The notes under the pieces: model-generated | What the model saw: only the letters and a program-made list of their open reading frames with translations | Database searches by the model: none | Told to the model about the DNA's origin: nothing | Assembly: GCA_017525525.1 (NCBI GenBank) | Contig: JAFXSQ010000023.1 | Location: forward strand, 1-59,919 | DNA: 59,919 bases | From: Lachnospiraceae bacterium | GTDB lineage: Bacteria; Bacillota; Clostridia; Lachnospirales; Lachnospiraceae | Direction of reading: 5' to 3' | Position numbers and translations under genes: made by a program | In this document: one piece after another, positions 14,888 through 41,260 of the stretch | Position numbering within the stretch: position 1 is the first letter of the stretch | Layout: each line of letters opens with the position of its first letter

Positions 14888-14908
14888 ATGTAGTATTGAA
14901 AACTACAT
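14888..14908. promoter_or_regulatory. TetR-type operator, ATGTAGT-N7-ACTACAT
   Basis: A 21-bp palindrome with 7-bp arms covers the predicted transcription start, an ideal place for repression. The same arms and the same 7-bp centre length occur at 41240-41260, directly after the TetR gene. Binding by that TetR is inferred. Confidence 0.75.
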
Positions 14909-14930
14909 GCAACAATAAATGAGGTGCGTT

Positions 14931-16625
14931 ATGCCGGAAAAAACATTCAAACCGGAGCCGGGAATAGCCGGCGCATATATAGATACTGTGATCGATGAGG
15001 AGAGCGGGCTGCTTGAGGACATCCGCTTTCATGACATCGATAGGTTTAATTTTGCTTATGACGTAGTAGACAGACTCGGAAGTGAACAGCCGGGTCGTCT
15101 AGCCATGCTTCACGTCGACCGTGAGGGCAAGGAGCGTCGTTTTACATTTGCGGATATGAAGAAGTACTCCTCCATGACCGCGAATTATTTCAGGTATTTG
15201 GGCATAAAGAAGGGCGACAGGGTGCTGCTTGTGTTAAAGAGGCATTACCAGTTCTGGTTTGCCATGCTTGCGCTTCATAAGATAGGCGCTATTGCGATAC
15301 CTGCCACATTTCTTCTGGTGAAGAAGGATTTTGAGTACAGGTTCAAGGCGGCAAAGATAAGCGCCGTCATAGCCACTGCCGATGGAAAATGCACCGAGGA
15401 GATAGACAAGGCAGAGAAGGGCTATGAAGGACTTAAGGCTAAGGTGCTGGTCGGCAGCAGATCGGTGAAGGGCTGGAGGAATTTCAACCGTGATATCCGC
15501 TTTTTCTCGGACGAATTCAAGAAACCTGCCAATTACGCGGGTGGCGATGATACCATGCTTATGTTCTTCACCTCCGGCACGACTTCATACCCCAAAATTG
15601 CTGCACAGAGTTACAAGTACGCTCTCGGACATTATGTGACGGCGCGCTTCTGGCAGCAGGTTAAAAGGGACGGGATACATTTTACCGTGAGCGATACGGG
15701 TTGGGCGAAAGCCATGTGGGGCAAGCTTTACGGACAGTGGCTCTGTGAGGCGGCGATATTTACATATGATTATGATGAGTTTATAGCCAACGAGATACTC
15801 GGAATGATAGCAAAATACAGGATTACGACCTTCTGTGCACCGCCTACGGTGTACAGGGTGCTTTCGCACATGAGGCTTGAGGATTATGACCTTTCTTCGG
15901 TGTCCAATCTGACCACCGCGGGTGAGGCGTTAAATCCCGAGGTCTTTGAGCGCATATATAAGTCTACGGGACTTTCAATCATGGAGGGCTTCGGTCAGTC
16001 GGAGTCTTCAATGATAGTGGGAAATATAAAGGGAGTTATGCCTAAACCGGGCTCCATGGGCAAGCCCAACCCGGGTTATGAGGTAGTTCTGCTTGATCAG
16101 GACGGAGTACCCTGTACTCCGGGAAAGACCGGTGAGCTGTGTGTCAAGGTTGACGGAGACACAAGACCCTGCGGACTGTTCAAGGGTTATTATTTAGACG
16201 AAGAAAAAACCGAAAATGTAATATATGAGGGCTATTATCATACGGGAGATACCGCATATGTTGATGCGGACGGTTACTACTGGTATGTCGGAAGAGTGGA
16301 TGATGTGATCAAATCAACCGGCTACCGCGTGGGGCCCTTCGAGATAGAAAATGAGATTATGAAGCTGCCGCATGTGCTTGAATGCGCGGTTACCGCAGTT
16401 CCCGATCCCATAAGGGGACAGGCGATAAAGGCTAGCGTTGTTTTGACAGACGGAACGGAAGGCACCGACAGCTTAAAGAGGCAGATGATGAAGGCTTTAA
16501 GAGCGGTGCTTGCCTCATACAAGAGACCGAAGATACTTGAGTTCGTGGCTGATCTTCCGAAGACCTCTTCGGGTAAGATTAAGAGGGCGGAGATTAAAGA
16601 GAGGGATTGGAAGAAAGATGAGTGA
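14931..16625 (+). CDS. AMP-forming acyl-CoA synthetase
   Basis: A 564-aa member of the ANL superfamily, closest in style to medium-chain/ACSM-type acyl-CoA synthetases. The ATP-binding TSGTT motif is at 214-218, a GEALNPEVF segment and YHTGD follow, and the C-terminal SSGKIKRAEI carries the adenylation Lys. It should activate a carboxylic acid with ATP and load CoA in the cytoplasm. Start 14931 has GAGGTG upstream; the ATG at 14919 lies in that site. It is the first gene of an operon: the fabF start overlaps its end by 8 bases. It is controlled by a TTGACA promoter with a TetR-like operator on the start site, suggesting induction by a fatty or aromatic acid. Confidence 0.9.
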   Translation: MPEKTFKPEPGIAGAYIDTVIDEESGLLEDIRFHDIDRFNFAYDVVDRLGSEQPGRLAMLHVDREGKERRFTFADMKKYSSMTANYFRYLGIKKGDRVLLVLKRHYQFWFAMLALHKIGAIAIPATFLLVKKDFEYRFKAAKISAVIATADGKCTEEIDKAEKGYEGLKAKVLVGSRSVKGWRNFNRDIRFFSDEFKKPANYAGGDDTMLMFFTSGTTSYPKIAAQSYKYALGHYVTARFWQQVKRDGIHFTVSDTGWAKAMWGKLYGQWLCEAAIFTYDYDEFIANEILGMIAKYRITTFCAPPTVYRVLSHMRLEDYDLSSVSNLTTAGEALNPEVFERIYKSTGLSIMEGFGQSESSMIVGNIKGVMPKPGSMGKPNPGYEVVLLDQDGVPCTPGKTGELCVKVDGDTRPCGLFKGYYLDEEKTENVIYEGYYHTGDTAYVDADGYYWYVGRVDDVIKSTGYRVGPFEIENEIMKLPHVLECAVTAVPDPIRGQAIKASVVLTDGTEGTDSLKRQMMKALRAVLASYKRPKILEFVADLPKTSSGKIKRAEIKERDWKKDE

Positions 16626-17868
16626 CAGGATAGTAATTACAGGTATGGGCGCGGTTACGCCCTGCGGAATAGGTGTAGATGATTTCTGGGCAGGACTGGT
16701 TAAGGGCGAGAGCGCAGTCGGAAGGATAAGCTCCTTTGACGCATCGGCTCTTCCGGTTCAGATTGCAGCTGAGATAAAAGATTTTGATCCGCTTAGATTT
16801 ATGGATAAGAAGCACACGAGGGAGCTTGCACCGTTTATGCAGTATGCTTTTGCGGCTGCAACCGAAGCTTTAGAGGATGCGGGTATATCCGGTGTGGCCG
16901 AGGAGAGAAGCATTCCATCGGACAGGATAGGCATATCCTTCGGAACCGCATTTGCGGGCTTTTCGGAGATTGCACAGACACAGGACGGTATCAGCAAGGG
17001 TGAGCACAGTAAGGTCAGCCCGCGCTTTGTGCCGAAGGTAATAGGCAATATAGCGGCGGCACAGATAGCTATAGCAAAGGGCTTTACCGGTCCTTCGATG
17101 ACCGTAACCACTGCGTGCTCATCGGGAGCGGACGCCATAACAAACGGTGCCATGCTGTTAAAGTCGGGCGATGCGGATGTGATGATATGTGTCGGCGCGG
17201 AGGCTGCAACCTGTGCGCTGAATATACTTGGGCTTTCCGGAGCGCATGCTTTGTCAACTGCAAATGAGATACCCGAGAAGGCATCACGCCCCTTTGACGA
17301 AGGCAGAAACGGCTTCGTTATGGGAGAGGGAGGCGGAGCCATAATCATAGAGACAGAGGAGCATGCAAAGGCTCGCGGTGCCAAGATACATGCTGTTCTT
17401 CTTGCATGCGCCAACAGCACGGACGGTTACCATGTGACCTCACCTCATCCGGACGGAATAGGCGCGATACAGTGCATGGAAAGCTGTATAAGGAAGGCAG
17501 GGCTTAAGGTTACCGATGTGGATTATATCAATGCGCACGGAACCTCCACGCCGGTGGGCGATGTGATTGAGACCAGGGCAATTCATACCCTTTTCGGTGA
17601 GCATGCGGATAAGCTTATGGTTTCTTCGACAAAGGGAACCACCGGTCATATGATGGGAGCGGGCGGAGTGACTGAGGTTATAGCATGCGTGAAGGCAATA
17701 CAGGAGGGAATAGTTCCTCCCACAGTTAATTTAGAGACACCGGACGACAAGTGCGACCTTGATTATGTTCCCTTAAAGGCAAGAAAGGCAGATGTTAAGG
17801 TTGCCATGTCCAACGCGTTTGGCTTCGGCGGACAGAATTCGAGCGTACTTGTGGGAAAATATCAGTAG
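16618..17868 (+). CDS. fabF: 3-oxoacyl-ACP synthase II (KAS II)
   Basis: A 416-aa condensing enzyme with a full Cys-His-His triad: Cys167 in TACSSGAD, His307 in NAHGTSTP and His344 in GTTGHMMG. KAS II extends acyl-ACP by condensation with malonyl-ACP. It overlaps the acyl-CoA synthetase gene by 8 bases and abuts the TraX gene. No acpP, fabD, fabG or fabZ is here, so this is probably a specialised second KAS acting with the acyl-CoA synthetase and not the housekeeping fab cluster. It is co-regulated through the operator at 14888. Confidence 0.93.
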   Translation: MSDRIVITGMGAVTPCGIGVDDFWAGLVKGESAVGRISSFDASALPVQIAAEIKDFDPLRFMDKKHTRELAPFMQYAFAAATEALEDAGISGVAEERSIPSDRIGISFGTAFAGFSEIAQTQDGISKGEHSKVSPRFVPKVIGNIAAAQIAIAKGFTGPSMTVTTACSSGADAITNGAMLLKSGDADVMICVGAEAATCALNILGLSGAHALSTANEIPEKASRPFDEGRNGFVMGEGGGAIIIETEEHAKARGAKIHAVLLACANSTDGYHVTSPHPDGIGAIQCMESCIRKAGLKVTDVDYINAHGTSTPVGDVIETRAIHTLFGEHADKLMVSSTKGTTGHMMGAGGVTEVIACVKAIQEGIVPPTVNLETPDDKCDLDYVPLKARKADVKVAMSNAFGFGGQNSSVLVGKYQ

Positions 17869-18699
17869 ATGACTAATGTATTAGATAAAACTGAAAGCAA
17901 GGGCTTGAGCGGAAGCATACTGAAGATAATAGCCTGTGTGACCATGTTTATTGATCACACGGCTTTTTCTATTGTGCGTCAGATGCAGCTTGGAGATACG
18001 ACTAATTTTGATTCGAACGGAGAACTCATAAAGAACGGAATATATTATCTCTTTCATGTGATGAGAGGGATTGGCCGGATAGCATTCCCTATATTCATAT
18101 TCATGCTTATCGAGGGATACTTCCATACCGATAACAGATGGCTGTATCTGCTCAGGATGGCAGTTTTCGCCATAATCTCCGAGGTGCCTTATGATGTGGC
18201 CTTTAATCTGACGCAGAGGCAGATGCTCGAAGGAAAGTTTATCGAGTTTACGGATCAAAATGTATTCTTTACGCTTTTCCTGGGGCTGCTTGCGGTTATT
18301 ATATCGGATACGCTTCTTTCACTGGATATCGATATAATGCTGAAGCTGGTGCTTTCCGGGGCTTTTGCGGTGGGACTGGCGGCGATAGCTTATTTTATGA
18401 AGACGGACTACGATGCAGTGGGAGTGTGCGCGATAGAGGCTGCATACCTGTTCAGGAAATCGGTTAAGATAATTGGCTATGAGGAGGAGTACCCCATAAG
18501 ATGCAACGTAATTTTTGCGGGTTTGATATGCACGATTCTGCTTTTTTCGGGCGTTAAGGAAGTATTTGCTTATGCAATCCTGCCGTTATGCGCGCTCTAC
18601 AACGGCAAACGCGGGCAATATATGAAGTATACATTCTATGTTTTTTATCCTTTACACCTGCTGATACTCGGTTTGATTAAGTTTATTATGTTTGAGTGA
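17869..18699 (+). CDS. TraX family membrane protein
   Basis: A 276-aa polytopic membrane protein starting directly after the fabF stop. The opening LKIIACVTMFIDHTA and the GRIAFPIFIFMLIEGY segment are the hallmarks of the TraX family, with about eight hydrophobic segments. F-plasmid TraX N-acetylates pilin; chromosomal TraX proteins in Clostridia are of unknown function but are thought to be membrane acyl-group transferases. In this operon it follows acyl activation and elongation genes, which makes acylation of a surface molecule a reasonable hypothesis. Confidence 0.85.
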   Translation: MTNVLDKTESKGLSGSILKIIACVTMFIDHTAFSIVRQMQLGDTTNFDSNGELIKNGIYYLFHVMRGIGRIAFPIFIFMLIEGYFHTDNRWLYLLRMAVFAIISEVPYDVAFNLTQRQMLEGKFIEFTDQNVFFTLFLGLLAVIISDTLLSLDIDIMLKLVLSGAFAVGLAAIAYFMKTDYDAVGVCAIEAAYLFRKSVKIIGYEEEYPIRCNVIFAGLICTILLFSGVKEVFAYAILPLCALYNGKRGQYMKYTFYVFYPLHLLILGLIKFIMFE

Positions 18700-18741
18700 G
18701 TGTGGTTGGAACTTATGCGATTAAAGAAAAAAGCCGTGTGG

Positions 18742-18925
18742 GCTAACAAAGCTGTGGGAAAACGGCATGTTGTTAGCTGAATAGAGCAAAATAATGAGAG
18801 GAAGTGTGCTTGGCGGCTAACAAAAATGCGCGAAAGAGACTTGTTGTTAGCTGTAAAGGTAGCGCAGAGGGCGGAAAACAAGTTAAAAGGCTAACAAATG
18901 AACGAAAAAGAGGTCTGTTGTTAGC
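18742..18925. repeat. Three hairpins at exact 74-bp period
   Basis: GCTAACAA-N20-TTGTTAGC occurs at 18742-18777, 18816-18851 and 18890-18925. Each unit is exactly 36 bases, each spacer exactly 38, and the period is 74. Only the ends (GCTAACAAA and TGTTGTTAGC) and a central GAAA/GAAAAA are conserved. 74 bp is close to seven helical turns. No ORF covers them; the rest of 18700-19164 is AT-rich leader of the foldase gene with a small hairpin GTGCG-cggata-CGCAC at 19098-19113. Confidence 0.85.
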
Positions 18926-19164
18926 TTAAGGCATGAAAATGGTGGTTTTGACGTAAATATTGACTGAATGCTATTATTATATAGGAATAGGATATGCAGG
19001 ATATTGGCAGAATATATGACGAGAGCTCGTGAATATTTCGTGAATTCGTCAATTTTGCACTTTATTTTTGGAATGAAGTGTGATATAAGTATGTAGTTGT
19101 GCGCGGATACGCACGGCGCTTTAGAAATATTAGGCAATAATAAGTTTCAGAAAGGAATACAGCA

Positions 19165-20268
19165 ATGAAGAAGAGCATTAAAAGAGTGCTTGCGGCTGCA
19201 CTCATCGGGATCGGAACATTAGGACTTTGCGGATGTGGCGGCAAGGTGAACGGCGTAAATGTAAACAAGATGATAGACAAGTTTTCTTCCTACGGCAATC
19301 CGGGGAATTACAAGGCTATTGAGTATAATCTCACAACCACGACTGTGGATGATGATATGGTTCAGTCCCAGATTGATTACATGATCAGTCAGAGTACTAC
19401 TACGGAAGAGGTTACAAGCGGAACCGTTGCTACGGGCGACACGGTCAACATAGACTTTGTCGGAACCATAGACGGTGAAGAGTTCCAAGGCGGTAACACC
19501 AACGGAAAGGGCTATGAATTAACACTCGGTTCGGGATCTTTTATCCCGGGATTTGAGGATCAGGTTGCAGGTCATAATGTAGGCGAAACGTTTGATGTCA
19601 AGGCAACCTTCCCGGAGGATTATAAGAGTACTGACATTGCGGGAAAGGATGCAGTGTTCTCTGTAACAATCAATTCTATAAAGAAAACAGTTACTCCCGA
19701 ATACAATGATGAATTTGTAAAGGCCAATTCAGAGTATAAGACGGTTGCTGAGTTTGAAGCAGGCTTAAAGCAGGATATGACTGACTACTATGCAAAGACC
19801 GACAAGAATGCCAACAGATCCGCAGTTATCACAGCGCTTGTTGAACAGACAACGGTTGATAAGTTCCCGGAGCAGGAGACTGAGGAGCTGCTTAAGAAGA
19901 CCATGGACAGAATCGATAATATGGCAGCGCAGTACGGTAAGGACACAGCAACCTATGTGACTACTTATCTCGGTTATTCAAGTGAGGATGCCTTCAAGAC
20001 CTATGTAAAGGGTGTCGTTGAGGATCACATTAAGGAAAAGATTGCTATATGCTCGGTGGCAAAGAGCGAGAACAAGACGGTTAACAACAAAGAGGTTGAG
20101 GATTATATCCAGACCATGATGGATGATTACGGTTATGATGATAGGGAAGCGGTATTAGAGGATTACACAGAGGAGGACCTCGTGTATTATGCGCTTGAGG
20201 ATAAGATTTGCACATACCTCTTAGAGGTGGTTCCTCCGACGGTTGCGACGGATACTGATGCCGAGTAA
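19165..20268 (+). CDS. Lipidated trigger-factor-like peptidyl-prolyl isomerase
   Basis: A 367-aa protein with a signal peptide ending in lipobox LGLCGC, so it is membrane-anchored on the outside. An FKBP-type isomerase domain (about 85-180, with the GSFIPGFEDQVAGHNVGE stretch typical of trigger factor) is followed by a helical trigger-factor C-terminal domain. The ribosome-binding N-domain of true trigger factor is absent. It is therefore probably a foldase for secreted proteins and not the ribosomal chaperone. It ends 141 bases before hup and is preceded by the 74-bp-period hairpins. Confidence 0.85.
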   Translation: MKKSIKRVLAAALIGIGTLGLCGCGGKVNGVNVNKMIDKFSSYGNPGNYKAIEYNLTTTTVDDDMVQSQIDYMISQSTTTEEVTSGTVATGDTVNIDFVGTIDGEEFQGGNTNGKGYELTLGSGSFIPGFEDQVAGHNVGETFDVKATFPEDYKSTDIAGKDAVFSVTINSIKKTVTPEYNDEFVKANSEYKTVAEFEAGLKQDMTDYYAKTDKNANRSAVITALVEQTTVDKFPEQETEELLKKTMDRIDNMAAQYGKDTATYVTTYLGYSSEDAFKTYVKGVVEDHIKEKIAICSVAKSENKTVNNKEVEDYIQTMMDDYGYDDREAVLEDYTEEDLVYYALEDKICTYLLEVVPPTVATDTDAE

Positions 20269-20332
20269 GCCCAAAAAATAGACATTTTTGAAAAAAAAAT
20301 TACGAAAAATGCCGTAAAATAGTAATTTTCTA

Positions 20333-20361
20333 TTGCTAAAGTGTTAACAATGTAGTAAAAT
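20333..20361 (+). promoter_or_regulatory. Sigma-A promoter of the HU gene
   Basis: TTGCTA (20333-20338), 17-base spacer, TAAAAT (20356-20361), giving a leader of about 40 bases. Confidence 0.7.
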
Positions 20362-20409
20362 CAATATATCGGCGAGACCGAAAGAATACATCAAAAGGAG
20401 ATTAGGACA

Positions 20410-20712
20410 ATGAATAAGACAGAGCTTGCAGCAGCAATTGCTTTGGAGGCAGGTCTTTCTAAGAAGGATTCCGAGGCAGCAGTTAAGGCATTTGTTAAGG
20501 TTGTATCTGAGGAGCTTCAGAAGAAGGAGAAGGTTCAGCTTATCGGCTTCGGTACCTTTGAGGTAGGCGAGAGAAAGGCTAGAACAGCTAGAAATCCCCA
20601 GACCGGCGAGGCTATAAAGATTAAGGCAGCAGCAGTGCCGAAGTTCAAGGCAGGCAAGGCTTTAAAGGAGCTTGTTAACAGCAAGCCGAAGAAGTCCGCA
20701 AAGAAGAAGTAA
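20410..20712 (+). CDS. hup: DNA-binding protein HU
   Basis: 100 aa, the usual HU length plus a short basic tail. The dimerisation helix MNKTELAAAIA start, the GFGTFEVGERKARTARNPQ arm and the VPKFKAGKALKE end are all canonical, with a KPKKSAKKK extension. HU bends and compacts DNA and supports recombination and replication. AAAAGGAG precedes the ATG; the gene has its own promoter and terminator. Confidence 0.96.
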   Translation: MNKTELAAAIALEAGLSKKDSEAAVKAFVKVVSEELQKKEKVQLIGFGTFEVGERKARTARNPQTGEAIKIKAAAVPKFKAGKALKELVNSKPKKSAKKK

Positions 20713-20727
20713 TAACTCCTTGTAAAG

Positions 20728-20754
20728 GCGCCCCGTATTAGCGGGGCGTCTTTC
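20728..20754 (+). terminator. Intrinsic terminator of hup
   Basis: GGCGCCCCG and CGGGGCGTC pair around a TATTAG loop, followed by TTTC. Confidence 0.85.
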
Positions 20755-20761
20755 ATTAGTT

Positions 20762-20841
20762 TATGCACACGACCGCGCAAAGTGGTTTTTCACTTTGCGG
20801 CGCGCGGTCGGCGCAATGCTCGGCGCGCGACGTTGTCTACA
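20762..20841 (+). repeat. GC-rich hairpin repeat (TATGCACACG type)
   Basis: It begins TATGCACACG, as does the tandem repeat at 46158, and like it follows a terminator. GACCGCG (20771-20777) pairs with CGCGGTC (20803-20809), and CGCAAAGTG (20776-20784) with CACTTTGCG (20791-20799). A further GC-rich segment with repeated GGCGCG words follows. No ORF. Confidence 0.6.
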
Positions 20842-20915
20842 CAAATGATATAAAGGTCTCGATTATATAAATAAATAACGGATAAATAAAGGATAGGAAA
20901 AGATAGGGAAAGAAT

Positions 20916-22829
20916 ATGCCATATACTGATTATGAAAAAGCGCAGAAACAGGGAGTAAAAGCGTTAAGAACTGCTATAGTAAAGGGAGAGAATGAGTATC
21001 TCCCGGTTTTAGATGAGATATTAGATGGTGTTGACATAGTAGGGGAGCAGCTGCTCGGCTTATACGATATACCGCTTGACAGGGTGGTGGGAACGAGCAC
21101 GCACGGGCGCACCTATGCATTTGCCAATAACTTCATGCCCATACTCGACTTAAAAAGTGAGTTCGGAGCAAAGTGGACAGCCCTTTGCGACAGCCAGATT
21201 GAAGAGGGAATCCATGAGCCGATTAAGGTCTTTGAGTACATGGCGAATTACTATGTGGTTGAGGGCAACAAGAGGGTGTCGGTCCTCAAATATTTTGAGG
21301 CTGCGACCATACCGGCCATCGTCACAAGAAAGATACCGAAGCTCACCGATGATCTTCAGGTTAAAATATATTACGAGTACATGGATTGTTTTAAGTACAC
21401 AGGGATAAACTATCTTTGGTTTTCGCAGGAGGGCTGCTTCAAGAGACTTCTTGAGCTTACCTCAGAGAATCCCAAGGCAGTGTGGACGGAGGATCAGAGG
21501 AAGGATTTCGGCTCGTTTAACCACAGGTTCAGCTCAGCCATAAAGAGCATGGGAGCGCAGAAGCTTCACATGCCGGTGAGCGAGGCGCTGCTTGTGTTTA
21601 TCGATATATTCGGGTACGATGAGGTCAAGAACCTGACAGAGGCGGAGCTTAAAACAAAGATAAGCACGCTATGGGAGGAATTTGAGGCTGAAGCAAAGGG
21701 CAGGGAGCTGACATTGCAGATGGAGCCGGCAAAGCAGGGAAGGAAGAACCTGATTGACTATTTCTTCTCGCCGTCGCAAAAGAAGGTTACGGTTGGCTTT
21801 ATCTTCGACAAGGATCCGAAGAATTCGGACTGGCTTTATGCGCATGAGCTCGGAAGGCTTTACTTAGAGGAGCATCATCCGGATACAATCAAGACTCTCG
21901 AGGCACATAATCTTAATGATGATGCAGAGATCACAACGGCGATAGACGGAATGATAGCAGAGGGAGCGAGCATAATATTTACAACCTCTTCGAGGATGGA
22001 GGCGGTATCATTAAAGGCGGCGGCCAACAACCCGAAGGTCACTATATTGAATTGTTCCATAGAGACGAGGCACAGGGTAATGAGAACCTACTACGCAAGG
22101 CTTTATGAGGTAAAGTTCCTCTCGGGCATGATTGCGGGTGCTTTGACAAAAAGCGGTCGTATAGGTTACCTGGCCGATTATCCGATAAAGGGCATGCCGG
22201 CGAACATTAATGCATTTGCTTTGGGCGCAAGGATGATGAATCCCGAGGCGAAGGTTTTCCTTGAGTGGACTAAGATAAAGGGCTCGTCGAGAGAGCTTGC
22301 GATAGAGCATTTTAAGAGACATGAGGTTCATTACATATCAGATCAGGATATGATAAAGCCAAACGAAGAGGGAAGGCTTTACGGACTTTATCACTTAGAC
22401 AATGACGGATTGAGGAACATAGCCATGCCCGTTTATAACTGGGGCGTGTTCTATGATAAGCTTATCGACAGCATTAAGTCGGGAGCGTACGAGCAGGAGG
22501 ACGATAAGGACGAGAAGGCCATCAATTACTGGTGGGGACTTTCGGCCGGTGTGGTGGATATAATTCTTTCACAGAAGCTTCCGGACGGCACGAGACAGCT
22601 TGTTGACCTGATGAAGGAGCTTATCGTGGAGGGGAAGTTCAATCCCTTCTCCGGCACATTTCGCTCACAGGATGAGCTGATAAGGAATAATGACGACAAG
22701 GAGGGGCTCACACCGGAGGAGATACTGGACATGAACTATCTCGCGGAGAATGTAGTGGGCTCGATACCGGAGATAGATATGCTCGACGATGCCGCAAGGG
22801 CAATCGTGGAGATCAAGGGTGTAGATTAG
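20916..22829 (+). CDS. ParB-like / BMP-type binding protein fusion
   Basis: A 637-aa cytoplasmic protein; no signal peptide. Residues about 50-140 fit the ParB/sulfiredoxin fold: a start like IPLDRVV, then SQIEEGIHEPIKVFEY and YYVVEGNKRVSVLKYF, matching the ParB motif of partner-proposing and the G-N-K-R catalytic-like loop. Residues about 288-550 are a BMP/PnrA-type ligand-binding domain (VTVGFIFDKDP start, IIFTTSSRMEA, GYLADYPIKG). BMP domains normally bind nucleosides outside the cell for an ABC importer. Here the domain is fused to a ParB-like module in the cytoplasm with no transporter nearby, suggesting a nucleoside-like sensor. The start has AGGGAAAG upstream. Confidence 0.75.
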   Translation: MPYTDYEKAQKQGVKALRTAIVKGENEYLPVLDEILDGVDIVGEQLLGLYDIPLDRVVGTSTHGRTYAFANNFMPILDLKSEFGAKWTALCDSQIEEGIHEPIKVFEYMANYYVVEGNKRVSVLKYFEAATIPAIVTRKIPKLTDDLQVKIYYEYMDCFKYTGINYLWFSQEGCFKRLLELTSENPKAVWTEDQRKDFGSFNHRFSSAIKSMGAQKLHMPVSEALLVFIDIFGYDEVKNLTEAELKTKISTLWEEFEAEAKGRELTLQMEPAKQGRKNLIDYFFSPSQKKVTVGFIFDKDPKNSDWLYAHELGRLYLEEHHPDTIKTLEAHNLNDDAEITTAIDGMIAEGASIIFTTSSRMEAVSLKAAANNPKVTILNCSIETRHRVMRTYYARLYEVKFLSGMIAGALTKSGRIGYLADYPIKGMPANINAFALGARMMNPEAKVFLEWTKIKGSSRELAIEHFKRHEVHYISDQDMIKPNEEGRLYGLYHLDNDGLRNIAMPVYNWGVFYDKLIDSIKSGAYEQEDDKDEKAINYWWGLSAGVVDIILSQKLPDGTRQLVDLMKELIVEGKFNPFSGTFRSQDELIRNNDDKEGLTPEEILDMNYLAENVVGSIPEIDMLDDAARAIVEIKGVD

Positions 22830-22837
22830 TGAAAGTG

Positions 22838-23016
22838 ATAAGATTCTTCGGGAAAAAGAGGAAGTATTGACACAGTGTCATCCTGAACGAAGTGACGCAG
22901 ACCGTAATGCGAAGCGTTACGGTGCCGGCCTTCGATGTCATAAGGAATCCACCGCAAGCGGTACCCCTTATGACGAAATGCGAGGGCTTGCGAAGCAACA
23001 GGAAGGGTCTTAAAAG
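22838..23016 (+). repeat. Class II composite hairpin repeat
   Basis: It opens GATTCTTCGGG, carries the hairpin ACCGTAATGC (22901-22910) / GCGTTACGGT (22914-22923) and a TCATAAGG...CCTTATGA hairpin with ACCGC-aa-GCGGT at its core, and ends GAAGGGTCTTA. A nearly identical inverted copy is at 38014-38165. Its end meets the ribosome site of the phosphoesterase gene. This gap contains no gene. Confidence 0.88.
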
Positions 23017-23025
23017 GGGATTGCA

Positions 23026-23622: not shown

Positions 23623-23711
23623 TTGACTTAGGGGCTTTAGCGCAAAAGACGCTATACGCCGAAACCTTTCGTAATAAAGAAACAATAATATACAATAAGG
23701 GAGAGAGTGAC

Positions 23712-31866: not shown

Positions 31867-32083
31867 GAATTTTGCATATTTATGCTATCGCTTCCGTTCA
31901 CGAAAGGTATAGTATATTATCCGCGTGGGGTTGTCAAGGCAAGGAGAGTCAGACAAGAAATATTATCAATAGGACTTAAGAATAGTAACCCAATTATAGT
32001 GACTTGCATATTGAAATATTGTATAATTCAAACCAACGGCTATTGGGAAAAGCAAACTATATTATTAATGGAGGAGGATGAGT

Positions 32084-32974: not shown

Positions 32975-32993
32975 GAAAAAAGGAGGCCAGATT

Positions 32994-35900
32994 ATGCCGG
33001 GACCAAATGACCGTTTAATTAAAGAATTAGAATTGGAAATGAAGAAGTCTCATGTCGAGCTTTCACCGATGAGTGAAATGATGAAAACCGCAGCGGAAGG
33101 ATTTGCATTTGCGGAGCAGGGGAAGAAGCTTTTTGCCGTGGCTGACTATCAGCATTCTGAGTTGGCTGACGGAAGCATAAATGTACATTTACAAGGAGAA
33201 CTGGGGGCATTAAGAGAAAAGCAGCTATACGATGACGCGGCTCTTCGTGATGCGATGAAGCGTCAGAAGCTCGGAGTCAAGGCGGAAATAGAAGGGGAAT
33301 TAAGCTACAGGGAGAAGGAGGCATCCTACACTAAGAAGAAGGGCGATCAGGAGAAGGATGCCAAGGCCAGGAGTGAGCAGCTTGCAGAGGTTCCTTTGGA
33401 TATGCTGCGAGAAAGGGCCGATAGCTTGAAAAAGAGGCTTGGGGAAGCTATAGATGACGATGATACCCTTGCCTTAGGTCAGCGCGAGTACGATAAGCAG
33501 TACCTGGCGGTGATTGAGGATCTGATTGAAACCCAGTCCTCGAAAGGAAAGCTGTTCGGAAACTATAAGAGCCACATCGCTCTCGCAAAGGAAAAGTATT
33601 ACTTTTATACCCAGGAGAGCGCGCGCCTTATAGGCAAGGAACAGGCAAAGCTCATGATGGCCAAGACAGAATACACGTCCAATCTTGATGCGGCAAAGAA
33701 TGCTTCGGGTTTCCCTGACCTCTTTTCGACGATTAAGGATATTAATGCGGAAGAAATAAGAAGGAACAAGGGCGACAAGGCATATGAGACATTAAGAAAA
33801 GCAATCTTAGAATACAGGGAGTATGCTTATAAGGTATATACTTTAAGGCGAGAGCTTGAAGCCATCAATGCAACAGAGCGAAATGATCTTGCGGCGCGAC
33901 AGAGCCGTCTGGCGGCCGCAGGCAATCCGATTCCAAATAGGATTGAGGACACAAATGATACACGTAATTGCTTATGGGCATTCAAAAAGTCAATAGAGAC
34001 GGAGTTGAGCGTGTGGAAGTTCTATGCGGATTCATGCGCTATGTGCATGGCGCAGCTGTCAAATATTGACGGAAAACCCATGATTAACGGAGCTTACTCG
34101 GCGCATGCGGGATATGTGAAAACCCATTTTGGAGTGGAGCTTGATGAGATAAAAACCGATGAAGCCCTTCGGGATCAGGAGATATGCCGAAGAATAGGAT
34201 TCGAGAGTGATGATTCTGATTGTGATTTTGAATCGGATCATAAGAGCAGCTCTAATGGTTATGTTGCGCAGAGAGCTTTCGAATGGAATGCAACCGAGGA
34301 TGTATCATCTGATATCGCCGAAGAAATGATCAAGCAAGGAAATCTGACCGGCAAAGAAGCGCGAGAGGCTAAGGAGGCGTGCCATGGAGTTGTTGCGATG
34401 TTTTTCTCGTTGCCTGCCTTAAGAGAGGTTAAGGATAGTACGGGAGAAAGCCATACAGAGATTCTTTTCGCCGGACATCGCGAGAGAAACGGTGATTACA
34501 ACGCTGAAGCGTATGAGGATTTAGATGAGGACGAGGTTATAAGTTGTGTGCAAGATATTGCGACCATCAGGACATCGAAGGATGAAGATGCGGTAAAGAA
34601 GGCTATTCTTGCGCGGATACCCCGTATAGATGAAGCATTTGATGATATAGATGCTTTTATGAACACGGGAAAGACCGCAGAAATATTCACCGCAAAGGGG
34701 CATGATGAGGTGTTCAATAACACTGCGGGACTCCCGAGCTTTGAGATGAAAGCAAGACAGCTTAGGGATATGATAGGTTATATCCTGAAACAAAAGCAGT
34801 GTCTTAAGGGTGCTGCAAATGATATCAATCAACAGGATATGCCGAAGGCGCTCTATCATAAGTGGATGTTTTTAAACAGGGCTTTAAGCTACGTGGATTA
34901 TCGTATACAGATTATGCAAAAGGGCTATAAGTCCACTCCGGAGGAGTGGGCGAAGGATACCACGGTTGTCGAATCCTTCTGGGATAAGATAAACTATGAA
35001 AAACAACAGGGAACCGATGATATCGGGAAATTCCTGATGGGCTTGTCTCACAAGCTTAATCGCTCGCTTAAGGGTGTACTGCCAAGCGCTGCGGCGCCAC
35101 AGGCTCCTGAGACGGATGTTCTTAACACTCCGATAGCCGGAGAGGAGGAGAACTGGTCCGAGGAGGATAAGAAAACCTGGCGCAGATGGAATGCGCAGCT
35201 TCGAGAGGCCGGCCGCAAGGCAGAGGAGCGGAATAGGGAGTGGGATGCACAGCTCGAAGGCTTCTCATTATCCGAGAAGAGAGACTTAAGGCGTGAGAGA
35301 TACGAATCGCGCAGGTATATTACAAGAGAACAGCAAAAGGATGCAATTATGAAGGACCTCATTAAAGCGTCTGATCACGCTGCGCTCTCTGCCGAATTGT
35401 TCTATAATCAGGGCAGGATGATCGAACTTGATGGAAAACTTGATAAATTGCCTGCGGCAGCGCCGGGAAGGCAGGAACTCGTAGCTGAGAGAATGGAACT
35501 TTCACTCAGACAGTCATCTCTGCAGAAGGAGCTTGAGGCAATCGAAAGAGATGCGGAAGAGAAGACAAGAGAGCTTCTGAAGCTTGTCAGGGAGCCGGAA
35601 AACAAGGATACAGCGCTAAAGGAGCAAATCTCGGCTTTGATCAACGAAGGTAATAAAAAGTTTGGTCCAAATGCGGATGGCAGTGAAGATTCTGTCTTAA
35701 TGACGAGAGTGATGCCTGAGATGCTTACTTTGAAAAGGATAGTTGATAATCCCGGTTTCTCGATCAAAGAGGCAAAAGAGAAGCATGCGGAGATTATGGA
35801 CTTAATAATAACGCAGTTTGAAAATGATGCAAAACCATACATTCTGAAATGCATTTCGAGGTCAAAAACAGCGTTGAGAGATGATGTGATCAACGGGATT

Positions 35901-37118
35901 ATTACCCGGGAAAAGGCTGATAAGCTTACGGTGCGTTTGAAGGATTATGAGAATAAAATCAATAATACCGATACAGAACCTTCTACCATACTTGTTATTG
36001 CGGAGTTTATGGATTCTCATATGAGCCATATTGAACCGGGATATGAGGCTCCGTTTTCAGCAATACTATTAAGGCAGGCGATGAATGTTGAGGTTTGTCT
36101 AAATGATATGGATAAAAAAATCGAAGGTGGGAAAGTCGGCTTTGCAGAAGTTGTTAATGCTACTGACTTTGACAAGGAATCCGATGAGCTTCACGGTGAT
36201 GTCTATGATTATCATGCTGATGAGGAGGAAGCGTTGAAATCGGTAAGAAAAGAACAGCACGGTATGAGACATAGCGCTAAATCCGAAGCGTTTAGAGAGG
36301 TAAAGCTGCATGTTGGCAGAATAGAGAACGCCGATAAAAAGGTCAAGGCAGAAAAGAAGAGATTTATGGAAGAAATTCGACGCATCGAAGGTGATACCGT
36401 TACGAAGCTTGTGGATGCCGAGAAGCCTGACGAGGATGTGGCTTCTTTGTTGTACAGTTTGAGCAGTCTGTTAGTGACTATTGCGGGAGGAACGGCTAAT
36501 CCTGTGCTTCCTGCCAATCAGGATGAGGCAAAGAATATATGTGGGAAAATGGGAACGAGTGTCTTGAGCCTTATCGATGATGACTTAACAGATCAACAGG
36601 TGCAGGAAGCTGTTGACTTTATGCGGGATAAGGTGATGACAGCGTATGAGGACATAAGAGCTTTTGTTCATTCACCCATAGGAGGTAAGATGATGGGTGC
36701 AAGGAGGGCGGATGACTTTACGCGTTTTCGGCGAGAAGCAGTGAATCCTGAGAACTATTCGGATGACATCGACGGAGTTGCGACACTTAGAATCAAGGCA
36801 GATAGTGTATTTGAGGTGGCTAAGCTGCTTTCAAGCCGAGGAGCGGATATTCCGGAGCAGATGATTGATACACTCTCAAGACTGACGGAGTTCCTGGAAT
36901 GGAGAGAGAATATTTTATCCGAAGTTCTCAAAAGCACAGGCAGTCTTAAGTATTCAGATAAAGAAAAATATATGAGTTTCAATTCAAGTACCAGGGAATA
37001 CGAACTCGATATGCTTGACGGAATCCGAACAACTGATTATGTTAATGATGTAATGGATGATCCCGAAAAGTGGAGTCATCCGGCCTTTGTATGGGATAGG
37101 GAAGAGACACATGAGTGA
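32994..37118 (+). CDS. Giant helical protein of unknown function, 1374 aa
   Basis: ATG 32994 follows AGGAGG by nine bases; an upstream in-frame ATG at 32937 lies inside the preceding gene. The product is almost wholly alpha-helical and highly charged, with many coiled-coil-like heptads (for example around residues 90-230 and 790-860) and a Pro/Ala break near 700. No signal peptide, membrane segment, P-loop or known catalytic motif was found. Base composition matches its neighbours. I do not recognise the family. The length, charge and pairing with a small GNAT-like protein suggest a scaffold or large-complex protein. Confidence 0.7.
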   Translation: MPGPNDRLIKELELEMKKSHVELSPMSEMMKTAAEGFAFAEQGKKLFAVADYQHSELADGSINVHLQGELGALREKQLYDDAALRDAMKRQKLGVKAEIEGELSYREKEASYTKKKGDQEKDAKARSEQLAEVPLDMLRERADSLKKRLGEAIDDDDTLALGQREYDKQYLAVIEDLIETQSSKGKLFGNYKSHIALAKEKYYFYTQESARLIGKEQAKLMMAKTEYTSNLDAAKNASGFPDLFSTIKDINAEEIRRNKGDKAYETLRKAILEYREYAYKVYTLRRELEAINATERNDLAARQSRLAAAGNPIPNRIEDTNDTRNCLWAFKKSIETELSVWKFYADSCAMCMAQLSNIDGKPMINGAYSAHAGYVKTHFGVELDEIKTDEALRDQEICRRIGFESDDSDCDFESDHKSSSNGYVAQRAFEWNATEDVSSDIAEEMIKQGNLTGKEAREAKEACHGVVAMFFSLPALREVKDSTGESHTEILFAGHRERNGDYNAEAYEDLDEDEVISCVQDIATIRTSKDEDAVKKAILARIPRIDEAFDDIDAFMNTGKTAEIFTAKGHDEVFNNTAGLPSFEMKARQLRDMIGYILKQKQCLKGAANDINQQDMPKALYHKWMFLNRALSYVDYRIQIMQKGYKSTPEEWAKDTTVVESFWDKINYEKQQGTDDIGKFLMGLSHKLNRSLKGVLPSAAAPQAPETDVLNTPIAGEEENWSEEDKKTWRRWNAQLREAGRKAEERNREWDAQLEGFSLSEKRDLRRERYESRRYITREQQKDAIMKDLIKASDHAALSAELFYNQGRMIELDGKLDKLPAAAPGRQELVAERMELSLRQSSLQKELEAIERDAEEKTRELLKLVREPENKDTALKEQISALINEGNKKFGPNADGSEDSVLMTRVMPEMLTLKRIVDNPGFSIKEAKEKHAEIMDLIITQFENDAKPYILKCISRSKTALRDDVINGIITREKADKLTVRLKDYENKINNTDTEPSTILVIAEFMDSHMSHIEPGYEAPFSAILLRQAMNVEVCLNDMDKKIEGGKVGFAEVVNATDFDKESDELHGDVYDYHADEEEALKSVRKEQHGMRHSAKSEAFREVKLHVGRIENADKKVKAEKKRFMEEIRRIEGDTVTKLVDAEKPDEDVASLLYSLSSLLVTIAGGTANPVLPANQDEAKNICGKMGTSVLSLIDDDLTDQQVQEAVDFMRDKVMTAYEDIRAFVHSPIGGKMMGARRADDFTRFRREAVNPENYSDDIDGVATLRIKADSVFEVAKLLSSRGADIPEQMIDTLSRLTEFLEWRENILSEVLKSTGSLKYSDKEKYMSFNSSTREYELDMLDGIRTTDYVNDVMDDPEKWSHPAFVWDREETHE

Positions 37119-37125
37119 TAGGTGA

Positions 37126-38013
37126 TTAAGTTTTGCTTAGCGCTCGGTTGATTGTGTTCAGCACATTCTTCTTATCCATGCTCCATTCGGGGGCAATCAA
37201 GGTTTTCTTGTCACCGTCGCCGGTTATGCGGTGGATGACAAGCTTCGTGCCGATAATCTGAACACAGTCGCGGATAAGAGAAGCATATTCATCTAAAGAA
37301 AGACACTTGAATTTACCGGCCTTGTAGTCAGCTGCAAGGTCGGTATTTTCTATTACATGCAGCAACTGGAGCTTTATGCCGTCTGCTCCGCTTGTGTTTA
37401 CGTAGCGGACTGTGGAAAGCATATCCTCGCGGGTTTCGCCGGGGAGTCCGAGGATGACATGGACGATAACGGAGAGTCCTCGATTTTTTAATTCCTCAAC
37501 CGCGCGATCGTATACGGAAAGCTCGTAACCGCGCCTGATGTAGGAAGCGGTTTTTTCGTGAATTGTCTGAAGTCCGAGCTCTACCCAGACAGGCTTGATT
37601 TTGTTTAATTCCGAAAGCAGCTCGAGGACTTCCTCAGGCAGACAGTCCGGACGTGTGGCGATAGACAGTACCTCGACCTCTGGATGGCTGATGGCCTCGG
37701 AAAAAAGACTGCGAAGCTTGCTTACCGGACCGTATGTATTGGTAAATGCCTGAAAGTAAGCTATGTATCCCGCGACTTCGTTCTTCGGGAGCTTGGCGGC
37801 GACACGCTTTTTACCATGCTCAATCTGTTCGGTCACTGAAAGACAGGCGGATTCGGAAAACTCACCCGAACCTGCGCCCGAGCAGAAGATGCATCCCCTT
37901 GTGTCAAGGGTTCCGTCCCTGTTCGGGCAGGTAAAGCCGCCGTTTATGGCAAGCTTGTAAAGTTTTTTGCCGAAGTGGGAGCGGATGTAATTGTTTAGGG
38001 TAATGTAGTTCAT
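37126..38013 (-). CDS. YhcC-like radical SAM protein
   Basis: A 295-aa radical SAM enzyme of the TIGR01212/YhcC family. The start MNYITLNNYIRSHFG and the cluster-binding CPNRDGTLDTRGCIFC segment are typical, followed by the GLQTIHEKTASYIRRG substrate loop. The longer frame to 38127 is translation of a repeat; ATG 38013 is the real start, with AAGGA supplied by the end of that repeat. The reaction of the family is unsettled. It converges on the giant-protein gene with seven bases between stops. Confidence 0.9.
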   Translation of the reverse strand: MNYITLNNYIRSHFGKKLYKLAINGGFTCPNRDGTLDTRGCIFCSGAGSGEFSESACLSVTEQIEHGKKRVAAKLPKNEVAGYIAYFQAFTNTYGPVSKLRSLFSEAISHPEVEVLSIATRPDCLPEEVLELLSELNKIKPVWVELGLQTIHEKTASYIRRGYELSVYDRAVEELKNRGLSVIVHVILGLPGETREDMLSTVRYVNTSGADGIKLQLLHVIENTDLAADYKAGKFKCLSLDEYASLIRDCVQIIGTKLVIHRITGDGDKKTLIAPEWSMDKKNVLNTINRALSKT

Positions 38014-38165
38014 ACTCAAGATCCTTCGCTTTCTGTTGCTTCGCAAGCCATCGCATTTCGTCATAAAGGGTACCGCTTGCGGTGGATTCCTTATGACATC
38101 GAAGGCCGGCACCGTAACGCTTCGCATTACGGTCAGCGTCGCGTTGCTCAGGATGACACTTCGGT
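38014..38165 (-). repeat. Class II composite hairpin repeat, minus orientation
   Basis: Almost identical, inverted, to 22838-23016: the ACCGTAATGC/GCGTTACGGT hairpin, the TCATAAGG...CCCTTTATG hairpin, the TTGCGAAGCAACAG hairpin and the terminal GAAGGATCTT. It points toward the minus-strand radical SAM gene and its end gives that gene's ribosome site. Its other end carries the stop codon of the HD-GYP gene. Confidence 0.9.
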
Positions 38166-38166
38166 G

Positions 38167-39519
38167 TTACTCGTGCAAATTATATTCCGTGTCTTCATCT
38201 ATCAGCTCAAGCATATACTTTGCTATCTCGGAATCAAACTGCGTGCCTAAGTTCTTTTTTATTTCCTCCCTCACAACATCTTGAGGGAGATACTTTCTGT
38301 AGCTTCTGTTCGATGTCATGGCATCATAAGCATCTGCAACGGCTATGATCCTTGCTTCGAGCGGAATATCTTCACCGGAAAGACCGTCAGGGTAACCTTT
38401 TCCGTCGAAGCGTTCATGGTGCCAGCGAGCGCCCTTTAACAGTTCGGGCTTGCTCTTTATCTTGGATAGAATCTCATATCCTATTACGGGGTGTGTCTTG
38501 ATTATCTCGTATTCTTCGTCATTAAGGCGTGACGGCTTGTTGATTATTTCGTTTGGAACTCCTATTTTACCTATGTCATGAAGAAGCCCCATATAGTAGA
38601 TGTTTTCACAGGTTTCCTCGTCCAATCCCATTTTCGCGCTTATCATGCGTGAGTATTTTGCCACTCTTATAGAATGACCGTTAGTGTACTTGTCCTTTGC
38701 ATCTATGGTGTTGGCCAGAGCCTCCATGACCTCAACGGACAGGTTCTTGGTCTCGTTTTTAGCGACGATTGCTTCGTTTGTCGCGTTGATATTGTTGATA
38801 ATGACGTAAAATGCCCAGATAAACAGGAAGAGAACCACCATGGAGAAAACCTGGGATGCCAGAAAGGTTTCATAACCGGCATATGCATATAAGCTGTAAC
38901 TGATAGGAAAATAAAACAAAAGAAAGATAGCAGGTGGGATTGTAAATATCTTCCAGCGTGTCACAATCTCTGTGTCAGACAGTTTGGCAAGCTCCTTTAT
39001 AATAAGATGATATATCAGAAGTGTAGCGATGATCAGAAGAATATGATTTAGTATTGATACAATGTACTGAAGTATTGAACTGAAGGTTACAGGGTCATCT
39101 GAAAGGCCTGTGATCACAGAAAAAATCAGATAGACAAAGGTGACCAGAGACACATTCTTAACCTTTAGCTTCTTTCCGATAAGGCGTGAGAACAGTATTA
39201 TCATAGGAGTGTATAAAACTCCAAATATTGACATCAATACAGCGAGAAAAGAAGAATTGGTCGCAAGTGTGTTTAGTTCGGCTGAAACGTGCCCGGTGGC
39301 GAGAAGGAAAATTATTGCAACAATATAAGCTAAAAATACAAATACAGCAAAAATAATATATGGATTTGTTGCAAGGGTAATAAAAAACAGCTTTATCCGA
39401 TCGTGTCTGTCGCTGTTCTTTAAAAAGCATTTTCTGATTGAATAATAGAACATAAATATAAAAATAAGGGTAAAAGAAATATTTAAAACCATGTCAATAA
39501 GATACAGCGTGTCGTTCAT
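38167..39519 (-). CDS. Membrane HD-GYP phosphodiesterase
   Basis: A 450-aa protein with seven or so hydrophobic segments in the first 240 residues and a C-terminal HD-GYP domain: GHSIRVAKYS, HDIGKIGVP with His314-Asp315, and HHERFDGKGYPDGL. HD-GYP domains hydrolyse cyclic di-GMP. The membrane part is a sensor of unknown signal (7TM-like). A decayed GGDEF gene elsewhere in the window belongs to the same signalling class. The stop codon at 38167-38169 lies at the junction with the class II repeat. Confidence 0.9.
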   Translation of the reverse strand: MNDTLYLIDMVLNISFTLIFIFMFYYSIRKCFLKNSDRHDRIKLFFITLATNPYIIFAVFVFLAYIVAIIFLLATGHVSAELNTLATNSSFLAVLMSIFGVLYTPMIILFSRLIGKKLKVKNVSLVTFVYLIFSVITGLSDDPVTFSSILQYIVSILNHILLIIATLLIYHLIIKELAKLSDTEIVTRWKIFTIPPAIFLLFYFPISYSLYAYAGYETFLASQVFSMVVLFLFIWAFYVIINNINATNEAIVAKNETKNLSVEVMEALANTIDAKDKYTNGHSIRVAKYSRMISAKMGLDEETCENIYYMGLLHDIGKIGVPNEIINKPSRLNDEEYEIIKTHPVIGYEILSKIKSKPELLKGARWHHERFDGKGYPDGLSGEDIPLEARIIAVADAYDAMTSNRSYRKYLPQDVVREEIKKNLGTQFDSEIAKYMLELIDEDTEYNLHE

Positions 39520-39680
39520 TTCCGTTTCCTTTCATCTGCCGTGATATTAACATACAGTAACATAGCATAAGAGCAGGCTTTGTGCAATGAAAATTAAGTA
39601 TATTTGATGTCACTTTATATTGATGGAAAAGCTGGCATTGTAGACAAAATAGACTTTTTAGACTTTTTGTATACTTTATA

Positions 39681-39709
39681 TTGACATATAAGGGTAAAAA
39701 TTGTATTAT
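39681..39709 (+). promoter_or_regulatory. Sigma-A promoter of the methyltransferase-tetR unit
   Basis: Perfect TTGACA (39681-39686), 17-base spacer, TATTAT (39704-39709). The remaining bases of 39520-39758 hold no gene; they show repeated AGACTTTTT words. Confidence 0.85.
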
Positions 39710-39758
39710 GGCAAGAATACAATAGGCTTTGTTTACAAAAGATTTCAGGAGGCATAAG

Positions 39759-40634
39759 ATGTGGATTGCAGATAAGTGGAAGGATTATGAGGTGATAGAC
39801 ACCTCTGGCGGAGAGAAGCTCGAAAGGTGGGATAAGTACATCCTGCTCAGGCCGGATCCGCAGGTAATATGGAACACTGAGAAGAAGAACCCGGCATGGA
39901 AGAAGCTGAACGCGCATTACCACAGGAGCGCAAAGGGCGGTGGAGAGTGGGAATTCTTTAATCTGCCGGAGCAGTGGACGGTAAGCTACGGGGATTTGAA
40001 GTTTAACTTAAAGCCTTTTTCGTTCAAGCACACGGGGCTCTTTCCTGAGCAGGCCGTGAACTGGGACTGGTTCGGCGGCATTATTAAAGATGCTTTGAAG
40101 AAGGAACCGAAAAGAGAGATAAAGGTTTTGAACCTCTTTGCATACACAGGCGGTGCGACTGTTGCGGCCGCAGCAGCGGGTGCGAAGGTTACCCATGTGG
40201 ACGCCTCGAAGGGCATGGTTACCTGGGCAAAGGAAAACGCCGAAAGCTCAGGGCTCGGCGATGCGCCCATACGATGGCTCGTGGATGACTGTGTGAAATT
40301 CGTCGAGAGAGAGTTAAGACGCGGCAATTCATACGATGGAATAATAATGGATCCGCCCTCATACGGCAGAGGCCCGAAGGGCGAGCTTTGGAAGCTCGAG
40401 GAGAGCATACACAGCTTTATCGAGCTTACTGCAAAGCTGCTCTCAAAGGATGCGTTGTTCTTCCTTGTGAATTCATACACAACCGGTCTTTCACCGGCTG
40501 TGCTTGACTACATGATCTCGATTGAGATAGCGAAGAAACGAGGTGGCAGCGTGACCGCATCCGATATAGGACTGCCGGTAACCGAGACCGGACTTGTGCT
40601 TCCGTGCGGCGCAAGCGGAAGATGGACGATTTGA
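39759..40634 (+). CDS. Class I SAM methyltransferase, RlmI-like
   Basis: A 291-aa Rossmann methyltransferase. The SAM loop VLNLFAYTGGATVAAAAAG and the catalytic MDPPSYGRGPKGE (DPPSY) are typical of RlmI/RlmK-type 23S rRNA cytosine methyltransferases; the N-terminal PUA domain is absent. ATG 39759 has AGGAGG eight bases upstream. It is 15 bases before the TetR gene and shares its promoter. The target RNA is not known from sequence. Confidence 0.88.
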   Translation: MWIADKWKDYEVIDTSGGEKLERWDKYILLRPDPQVIWNTEKKNPAWKKLNAHYHRSAKGGGEWEFFNLPEQWTVSYGDLKFNLKPFSFKHTGLFPEQAVNWDWFGGIIKDALKKEPKREIKVLNLFAYTGGATVAAAAAGAKVTHVDASKGMVTWAKENAESSGLGDAPIRWLVDDCVKFVERELRRGNSYDGIIMDPPSYGRGPKGELWKLEESIHSFIELTAKLLSKDALFFLVNSYTTGLSPAVLDYMISIEIAKKRGGSVTASDIGLPVTETGLVLPCGASGRWTI

Positions 40635-40649
40635 AGGGAGATGTAACAC

Positions 40650-41216
40650 ATGGCTGACAAAAGAAGAGACACTAAAAGAGTGATAGCTGAAAGCTTCAAG
40701 GAATTGCTGAAGAAAAATCCCATAGAGAAGATAACAGTGGGTAACATAACAGAGCTTTCGGGTGTGATCCGTCCGACATTTTATAATCATTTCAGCGATA
40801 AGTACGAGGTTTTGGAGTATATCATCAGAAATGATCTTCTACTTCCGATAAAGCCGTTGCTTGCTAACGACATGATAGTAGAGGGCGTGACGCTCCTTAT
40901 GTCCAATATGAATAATGAGATAGATTTCTACAAAAATGCCGTCAGGATAGAGGGACAGAATTCCTTTGAGGTCGTGGCCAGGCAGGAGGTTGCAAAGCTT
41001 CTGCTTGAAATCATGGAGGAACGTTCGGGAGAAGCCACGCATTATAAATACAGATGGCTTACACGTGAGATAGTGGCGGAGTATTATGCGCAGTCGATTA
41101 CATACGTGGCCACAAGCTGGATTAAACAGGATTATTCGATAACACCCAAGGAAATATCTGAGATATATGACTTCCTGACGCATAATAATGTAATAGATGT
41201 GCTTAAATCGTTGTGA
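40650..41216 (+). CDS. TetR/AcrR family transcriptional regulator
   Basis: A 188-aa regulator. The N-terminal HTH spans about residues 25-50 (ITVGNITELSGVIRPTFYNHF then SDKYEVLEY); the C-terminal domain is all-helical and would bind a small inducer. A 21-bp palindrome ATGTAGT-N7-ACTACAT starts 24 bases after its stop, upstream of the MmpL gene, and an equal palindrome overlaps the transcription start of the acyl-CoA synthetase operon at 14888. It is thus the best candidate repressor of both. The site is not upstream of its own promoter. Confidence 0.88.
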   Translation: MADKRRDTKRVIAESFKELLKKNPIEKITVGNITELSGVIRPTFYNHFSDKYEVLEYIIRNDLLLPIKPLLANDMIVEGVTLLMSNMNNEIDFYKNAVRIEGQNSFEVVARQEVAKLLLEIMEERSGEATHYKYRWLTREIVAEYYAQSITYVATSWIKQDYSITPKEISEIYDFLTHNNVIDVLKSL

Positions 41217-41239
41217 TAAAACAAACTATTTTGGTACTA

Positions 41240-41260
41240 ATGTAGTTTATATAACTACAT
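41240..41260. promoter_or_regulatory. TetR-type operator upstream of the MmpL gene
   Basis: ATGTAGT-TTATATA-ACTACAT, arms and spacing identical to 14888-14908. A likely promoter TTGTGA (41211-41216), 18 bases, TACTAA (41235-41240) places the operator just after the -10. The remaining leader to 41387 is AT-rich with no ORF. Confidence 0.78.

Follow-up and report, generated by a model that had tools for sequence, protein, structure and literature searches.

The window analysed here, a stretch of 59,919 nucleotides from a Lachnospiraceae bacterium (contig JAFXSQ010000023.1 of assembly GCA_017525525.1), contains two copies of the palindrome ATGTAGT-N7-ACTACAT, one at positions 14888-14908 before an acyl-CoA synthetase (ACS) operon and the other at 41240-41260 between a TetR regulator gene and an MmpL exporter operon. 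Comparison with related genomes makes it likely that a protein carrying the Pfam domain DUF1836 binds the first site, with the second as a probable target; the alternatives weighed below overlap with this reading in part. Taken singly, the site at 14888 very probably serves a DUF1836 lipid regulator as its operator, and that at 41240 is probably a DUF1836 operator too, one that arose recently. On balance, and with slightly less confidence, we favour the wider proposal that DUF1836 proteins are lipid-responsive transcription factors across the Clostridia, which use the operator ATRTAGTWTTNAAWACTAYAT. Their core regulon would comprise their own gene, hlyIII (trhA), degV/fakB and, in one branch, ACS-fabF, and the organism of the window would just have captured its MmpL operon, through a new site lying partly on the operator of the local TetR.

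The two palindromes had been reported in an earlier note made from the sequence alone (the original prediction), which ascribed both to the adjacent TetR. Both sites lie where that note placed them, with identical 7-base arms and a centre of 7 bases in each. The exact palindrome occurs in only two places in the whole genome (3.19 Mb in 75 contigs), both on the same contig, and the pattern read backwards occurs nowhere. Near-sites with up to two mismatches number 10, against 21 for the backwards control, and reveal no further site family. The weight of the observation comes from this exactness and the genome-wide count, as the number of sites with up to three mismatches in the window (2 found, a mean of 1.72 expected) is not above chance.

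Across the family, the exact palindrome is present in 81 of 299 genomes and the backwards control in 15. Of 93 exact palindromes in genomes other than the window's, 73 were examined, with DegV and HlyIII being named by Pfam on representatives. Here, 35 sites adjoin a DegV gene, 28 adjoin an HlyIII gene and one precedes an ACS ortholog, which leaves nine beside none of these (L011, L017, L018, L020, L021, L070, L087, L094 and L095; four score below 13 bits and five at least 28 bits with the weight matrix described below). DegV proteins are described as including the fatty-acid binding FakB subunits (PMC5958418).

A separate observation concerns five same-genus genomes (L305:1626-2927, L308:1708-3009, L300, L303 and L309), where the palindrome, with one mismatch in L303, precedes a gene of about 433 residues. 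This gene follows rpsF-ssb-rpsR, as assigned by Pfam in L305 and by similar frame lengths in the others, and the L305 protein has no Pfam match. Its HVLTDGSG stretch may resemble condensation-type acyltransferases.

Degenerate sites, examined in ten genomes, point to DUF1836: in three of the ten, a site immediately precedes the gene of a 200-residue protein that carries this domain. DUF1836 is encoded by 255 of the 299 family genomes, including that of the window, where the gene is on a different contig (G000:C60:15617-15901, E 5e-33). Bacillus subtilis, used as a control genome, also gave a match. Its stretch bearing the helix-turn-helix (HTH) is strongly conserved between the organism's own protein and its relatives, and a PDB search with a profile of five DUF1836 sequences gave no match at E 1. 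When the 250 bp upstream of DUF1836 were searched with up to three mismatches, the motif was present in 26 of the 30 best loci of the family and in 23 of the 28 best-scoring loci of the class, the latter drawn from a class-wide search that matched 129 of 291 genomes. The reversed motif was found in neither set, and shuffled versions gave a mean of 0.13 in each. Position is also constrained, with 17 of the 26 family sites beginning 43-54 bases before the estimated DUF1836 start. Among the 21 loci from outside the family, 17 have hlyIII and DUF1836 in divergent orientation; every one of the 17 has the motif before DUF1836, and 16 have it in the interval between the two starts.

A weight matrix was built from 49 DUF1836 upstream sites, none of which comes from the genome of the window. 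Applied to the window, it ranks the site at 14888 first (31.2 bits) and that at 41240 second (23.1 bits), with the next position at 13.3 bits. The best score in 622 kb of other sequence (80 MmpL loci) is 15.1 bits, while exact DegV and HlyIII sites, which were chosen for their exact arms, score from 20.8 bits upwards. In a relative from the same genus, G180, the broad motif with up to three mismatches occurs in 8 places versus 0 for the control, and the two best precede ACS and DUF1836. DUF1836 is present in 79 of the 81 palindrome genomes versus 176 of the 218 others (Fisher p 8e-5, uncorrected for kinship), and in the two palindrome genomes that lack it the sites score 7.8 and 8.7 bits and are off-motif.

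The first site and the operon it precedes comprise the following features:

14857..14885, plus strand: promoter TTGACA-17-TAGAAT of the acyl-CoA synthetase operon, with 11/12 matches
14888..14908, no strand: palindromic operator ATGTAGTATTGAAAACTACAT, read as a DUF1836 operator; over the transcription start, 31.2 bits, conserved before ACS orthologs
14919..16625, plus strand: AMP-binding acyl-CoA synthetase, whose best relative in the PDB is 3etc (E 3e-172)
16549..17868, plus strand: FabF-type beta-ketoacyl-ACP synthase II; TIGR03150 above cut-off, overlaps the ACS end, start codon unsettled
17869..18699, plus strand: TraX family protein (PF05857)

The promoter named in the original prediction is present, and its position means that the palindrome covers the likely transcription start. 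Across four same-genus loci aligned with the window, TTGACA and TA-AAT are invariant, and promoter and operator align in the genus. Beyond this, the motif with up to four mismatches precedes ACS in 10 of the 29 loci of relatives (L111-L139), all ten being among the 11 best-scoring (L111-L121). The group of ten was picked after the upstream motifs had been inspected; L119, which is among the eleven best, has no palindromic site upstream and was placed with the rest, and the site of L120 is weak (14.3 bits). None of the 18 more distant relatives has the motif before ACS, and many of them have coding sequence at that stretch. The lack of a site in many of the 19 other loci therefore says little, since the stretch looks like the coding sequence of a longer frame. 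Five further genomes of the genus carry the motif before ACS, one of them sharing the 21-mer exactly and having an ACS of 94% identity. All ten ACS-site genomes have DUF1836, and six of the ten are without a TetR match at E 1e-10. From this distribution, acyl activation and fabF are an old target of the site, and MmpL a new one at best.

Two arrangements near ACS were observed in passing. In G291 (L361:1354-4587), fabF and ACS are divergent and ATGTAGTTTCCATTACTACTT lies upstream of ACS. In L119 and L122-L131, which lack the palindrome, the ACS relatives lie in open frames of approximately 758-779 residues, some with one internal stop counted, and the coding stretch that precedes the ACS match may, judged by eye, resemble a cupin.

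The original prediction had also placed TraX, as a modifying acyltransferase, in a set that makes, modifies and exports an acylated product. Twelve ACS regions of relatives were compared (L167, L169, L350-L353, L355-L359 and L361; L354 and L360 end before fabF and were excluded). TraX adjoins ACS-fabF in three of them (L169, L350 and L352), all from the own genus, and going by gene order TraX is not a core member of the set. A conserved set for activation, acylation and export was rejected on these counts. Against that rejection stands a TraX relative (35%) that precedes TetR-MmpL at L054:2776-3489 (G297) and L238:828-1541.

The second site lies in a different setting, the features of which are as follows:

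40650..41216, plus strand: TetR family regulator, TetR_C_8; DhaS-like, below the cut-off of the DhaS model
41240..41260, no strand: second exact palindrome ATGTAGTTTATATAACTACAT, candidate DUF1836 operator; 23.1 bits, in the own genome alone
41254..41277, no strand: candidate operator of TetR itself, ACTACA-N12-TGTATA; overlaps the right arm of the palindrome and aligns with relatives
41332..41337, plus strand: TATTAT, a candidate -10 for the MmpL operon; unchanged in two relatives, seen by sequence comparison alone and missed by the promoter scan
41388..43493, plus strand: MmpL/RND family exporter (PF03176)
43511..46093, plus strand: Leu/Gly heptad repeat protein after MmpL (TIGR03057; no Pfam family at E 0.001)

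The heptad-repeat protein also stands 3' of MmpL in G180 and in L217. A promoter had been claimed at this site as well, and here the scan gave no confirmation: between 41150 and 41450 it returned 2 matches versus 2.1 in shuffles, none of them above chance, with a weak one on the plus strand at 41158-41186 inside the TetR gene and the other on the minus strand at 41291-41262. If TATTAT is the -10, approximately 90 bases would separate the palindrome from the start downstream of it, a geometry unlike that of the first site.

Very probably, the TetR binds a different operator of its own, one that overlaps the palindrome at its right arm. Thirty TetR ortholog loci were fetched (122 of the 299 genomes had a TetR match), together with 80 MmpL loci from named genomes, whose species overlap the TetR set in part; some of the loci stop at a contig end. 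Downstream of the TetR gene, TATACA-N12-TGTATA with at most one mismatch is present in the gap of 11 of 30 loci, while other spacers (4-21) give 0-2. In the 43 MmpL loci with a TetR directly before, the count is 25 with at most one mismatch and 36 with at most two, compared with 0-3 and 0-25, respectively, for spacers of 6-18, the value of 25 belonging to spacer 10. The window's version, ACTACA-N12-TGTATA at 41254-41277, can be aligned with the TetR operators of two close relatives, and the ACTACA variant serves as the left half-site in L269 and L283 also. Orthologs of this TetR exist without MmpL (L051, L053, L057, L060, L065, L067, L068 and L069); these are often followed by the gene of a small membrane protein, presumably MntP-like, and some of the gaps carry TATACA-N12-TGTATA.

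Several results weigh against DUF1836 as the binder, or against the breadth of its regulon, and they are gathered here. In the genome of the window, the broad motif with up to three mismatches is found in 14 places versus 10 for the control, and since only two sites are clear, the organism's own DegV and HlyIII genes (not located) are without a clear site. The site before its own DUF1836 gene, 44 bases from the start, is weak (4 mismatches, 11.3 bits). Across the 37 genomes of the genus, 41 places match the bare pattern with one mismatch, fewer than the 68 of its control, and of the 41 only those that adjoin ACS (5) or DegV (2) were used. No site with up to three mismatches precedes DUF1836 in 4 of the 30 family loci (L176, L183, L184 and L186) and in 5 of the 28 class loci (L322, L328 and L335-L337). 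The class set itself has 21 of its 28 loci outside the own family, mostly from two families. Finally, 176 of the 255 DUF1836 genomes are without the exact palindrome, with degenerate sites having been searched in 11 genomes.

Further points of this kind concern the second site, which is not conserved before MmpL: none of the 109 relatives' loci (0/29 TetR loci and 0/80 MmpL loci) has the exact form. In G180, whose TetR and MmpL are 65% and 79% identical, no palindrome occurs at TetR-MmpL, and the closest relative, with an MmpL identity of 90%, scores 9.2 bits at the corresponding position. The original prediction had proposed to check whether both operons and the site co-occur in related genomes; among the loci examined, the own genome is the only one in which the exact palindrome stands before MmpL. 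If the arms are kept constant and the centre is drawn from uniform random sequence, 23.1 bits is reached in 2.4% of cases, and AT-rich centres would get there more often.

These points give some room to the explanation that 14888 is a DUF1836 operator and 41240 has no role, being a chance palindrome or a by-product of the TetR half-site. The absence of conservation even at 90% MmpL identity agrees with it, as do a centre that differs from the consensus at two positions, a right arm common to the TetR operator and the distance of about 90 bases to the likely start. The score of the site speaks on the other side, as it exceeds the background best and lies above the lowest score among the exact DegV/HlyIII sites. 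Chance also rarely yields an exact match, as the backwards control in 15/299 genomes indicates, and this one sits in the gap before a lipid exporter. We regard a second site without function as unlikely.

It is also conceivable that a third regulator binds the palindromes and may, in addition, control the DUF1836 gene. DUF1836 binding is deduced from upstream sites, neighbourhood and co-occurrence alone, and known lipid regulons are under MarR (FabT), TetR (FabR) and other proteins. Against this, several families have the site ahead of their DUF1836 genes, 17 of the 26 own-family sites keep a narrow spacing from the estimated start and, among 30 scanned neighbour proteins, the only regulators were three DUF1836 proteins and a single GntR. 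We consider this alternative a little less likely still than a functionless second site.

The least probable explanation is that of the original prediction, in which both palindromes are targets of the adjacent TetR, which would link acyl activation with export. In its favour, the TetR gene adjoins the site at 41240, the two sites are the sole exact ones in the genome and lie on one contig, and the TetR may well touch the palindrome at 41240 through the right arm, ACTACA, which is a left half-site in L269 and L283; in addition, the TetR-MmpL gap of L050 has a similar palindrome, the only one with at most two arm mismatches among the non-own TetR loci. Conservation decides otherwise: the gaps carry TATACA-N12-TGTATA, in which the half-site order is opposite, the exact palindrome is absent from the relatives' TetR and MmpL loci examined and the ACS sites persist in genomes without a TetR match at E 1e-10. 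The TetR was rejected as the common regulator on these grounds. What stands of the original proposal is that one element joins both operons and behaves as the operator of a lipid regulon; its assignment to the neighbouring TetR found no support.

With DUF1836 as the preferred binder, the following mechanism can be proposed. A DUF1836 dimer would most likely sit across the start of the ACS operon and repress acyl-CoA synthetase-fabF(-traX). A lipid-related signal would release the protein, and acyl-CoA, acyl-ACP or free fatty acid can be offered as a guess. The sites near its own start suggest that DUF1836 autoregulates. At the MmpL operon, a site that arose recently in this lineage beside an older TetR operator would have brought the exporter partly under DUF1836 control. 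As this site precedes the promoter and overlaps part of the TetR operator, simple blocking of the polymerase is unlikely there; instead, DUF1836 may compete with the TetR. The named proteins closest to this TetR are the DhaS activators.

A logic of this kind has precedents. The FabT, FapR and FadR regulons have operators before fatty-acid genes and follow repressor logic. The proposed DUF1836 regulon is similar in having operators before fatty-acid genes but differs in protein family and in motif. A paper on FabT has table rows for DegV and hemolysin III (PMC8406281). In Escherichia coli, TrhA (YqfA), an HlyIII homolog, is placed in the unsaturated fatty acid regulon (PMC9017321); an HlyIII homolog is under a lipid regulator in both cases, with a FabR site involved there and, as we infer, DUF1836 here. 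The same gene families were brought together in the 2011 paper on the CREST superfamily, which noted hlyIII-DUF1836 and hlyIII-DegV neighbourhoods and proposed, from the STRING neighbourhood, that DUF1836, a member of Pfam's HTH clan, may regulate some hemolysin III genes (PMC3146951). The accessible text of that paper gives no operator, regulon, acyl-CoA synthetase-fabF or MmpL operon. A literature search, with most subscription journals outside its reach, found no DUF1836 operator or regulon.

For the exporter locus, the nearest described TetR-MmpL pair known to us is FarE/FarR. In this Staphylococcus aureus system a TetR regulator stands beside an RND/MmpL exporter, as in the window (PMC10019231, PMC12671165). 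That exporter is reported to answer to fatty acids. The farE gene is described as transcribed divergently (PMC8844917), with an intergenic segment that binds FarR, while the TetR of the window is on the same strand as mmpL and before it. Moreover, the window's TetR is DhaS-like with the putative operator TATACA-N12-TGTATA, unlike FarR. The DhaS-type TetR activators (PDB 2iu5 and 4mk6) are sequence relatives of this TetR, with a different gene context.

Elsewhere in the window, the GA-cis RNA has three matches over the gathering score, at 8535-8623, 8626-8696 and 52547-52634, two of which are in tandem.

For the window, these results correct a tempting assignment of the palindromes to the neighbouring TetR. 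If the DUF1836 reading is true, a domain of unknown function found in most genomes of the family would gain a DNA target, a gene set and a physiological field, namely how fatty acids are taken up, activated and used in the membrane. DegV/FakB and HlyIII/TrhA would be joined through one regulator, and the motif by which this would occur is directly testable in cultured bacteria.

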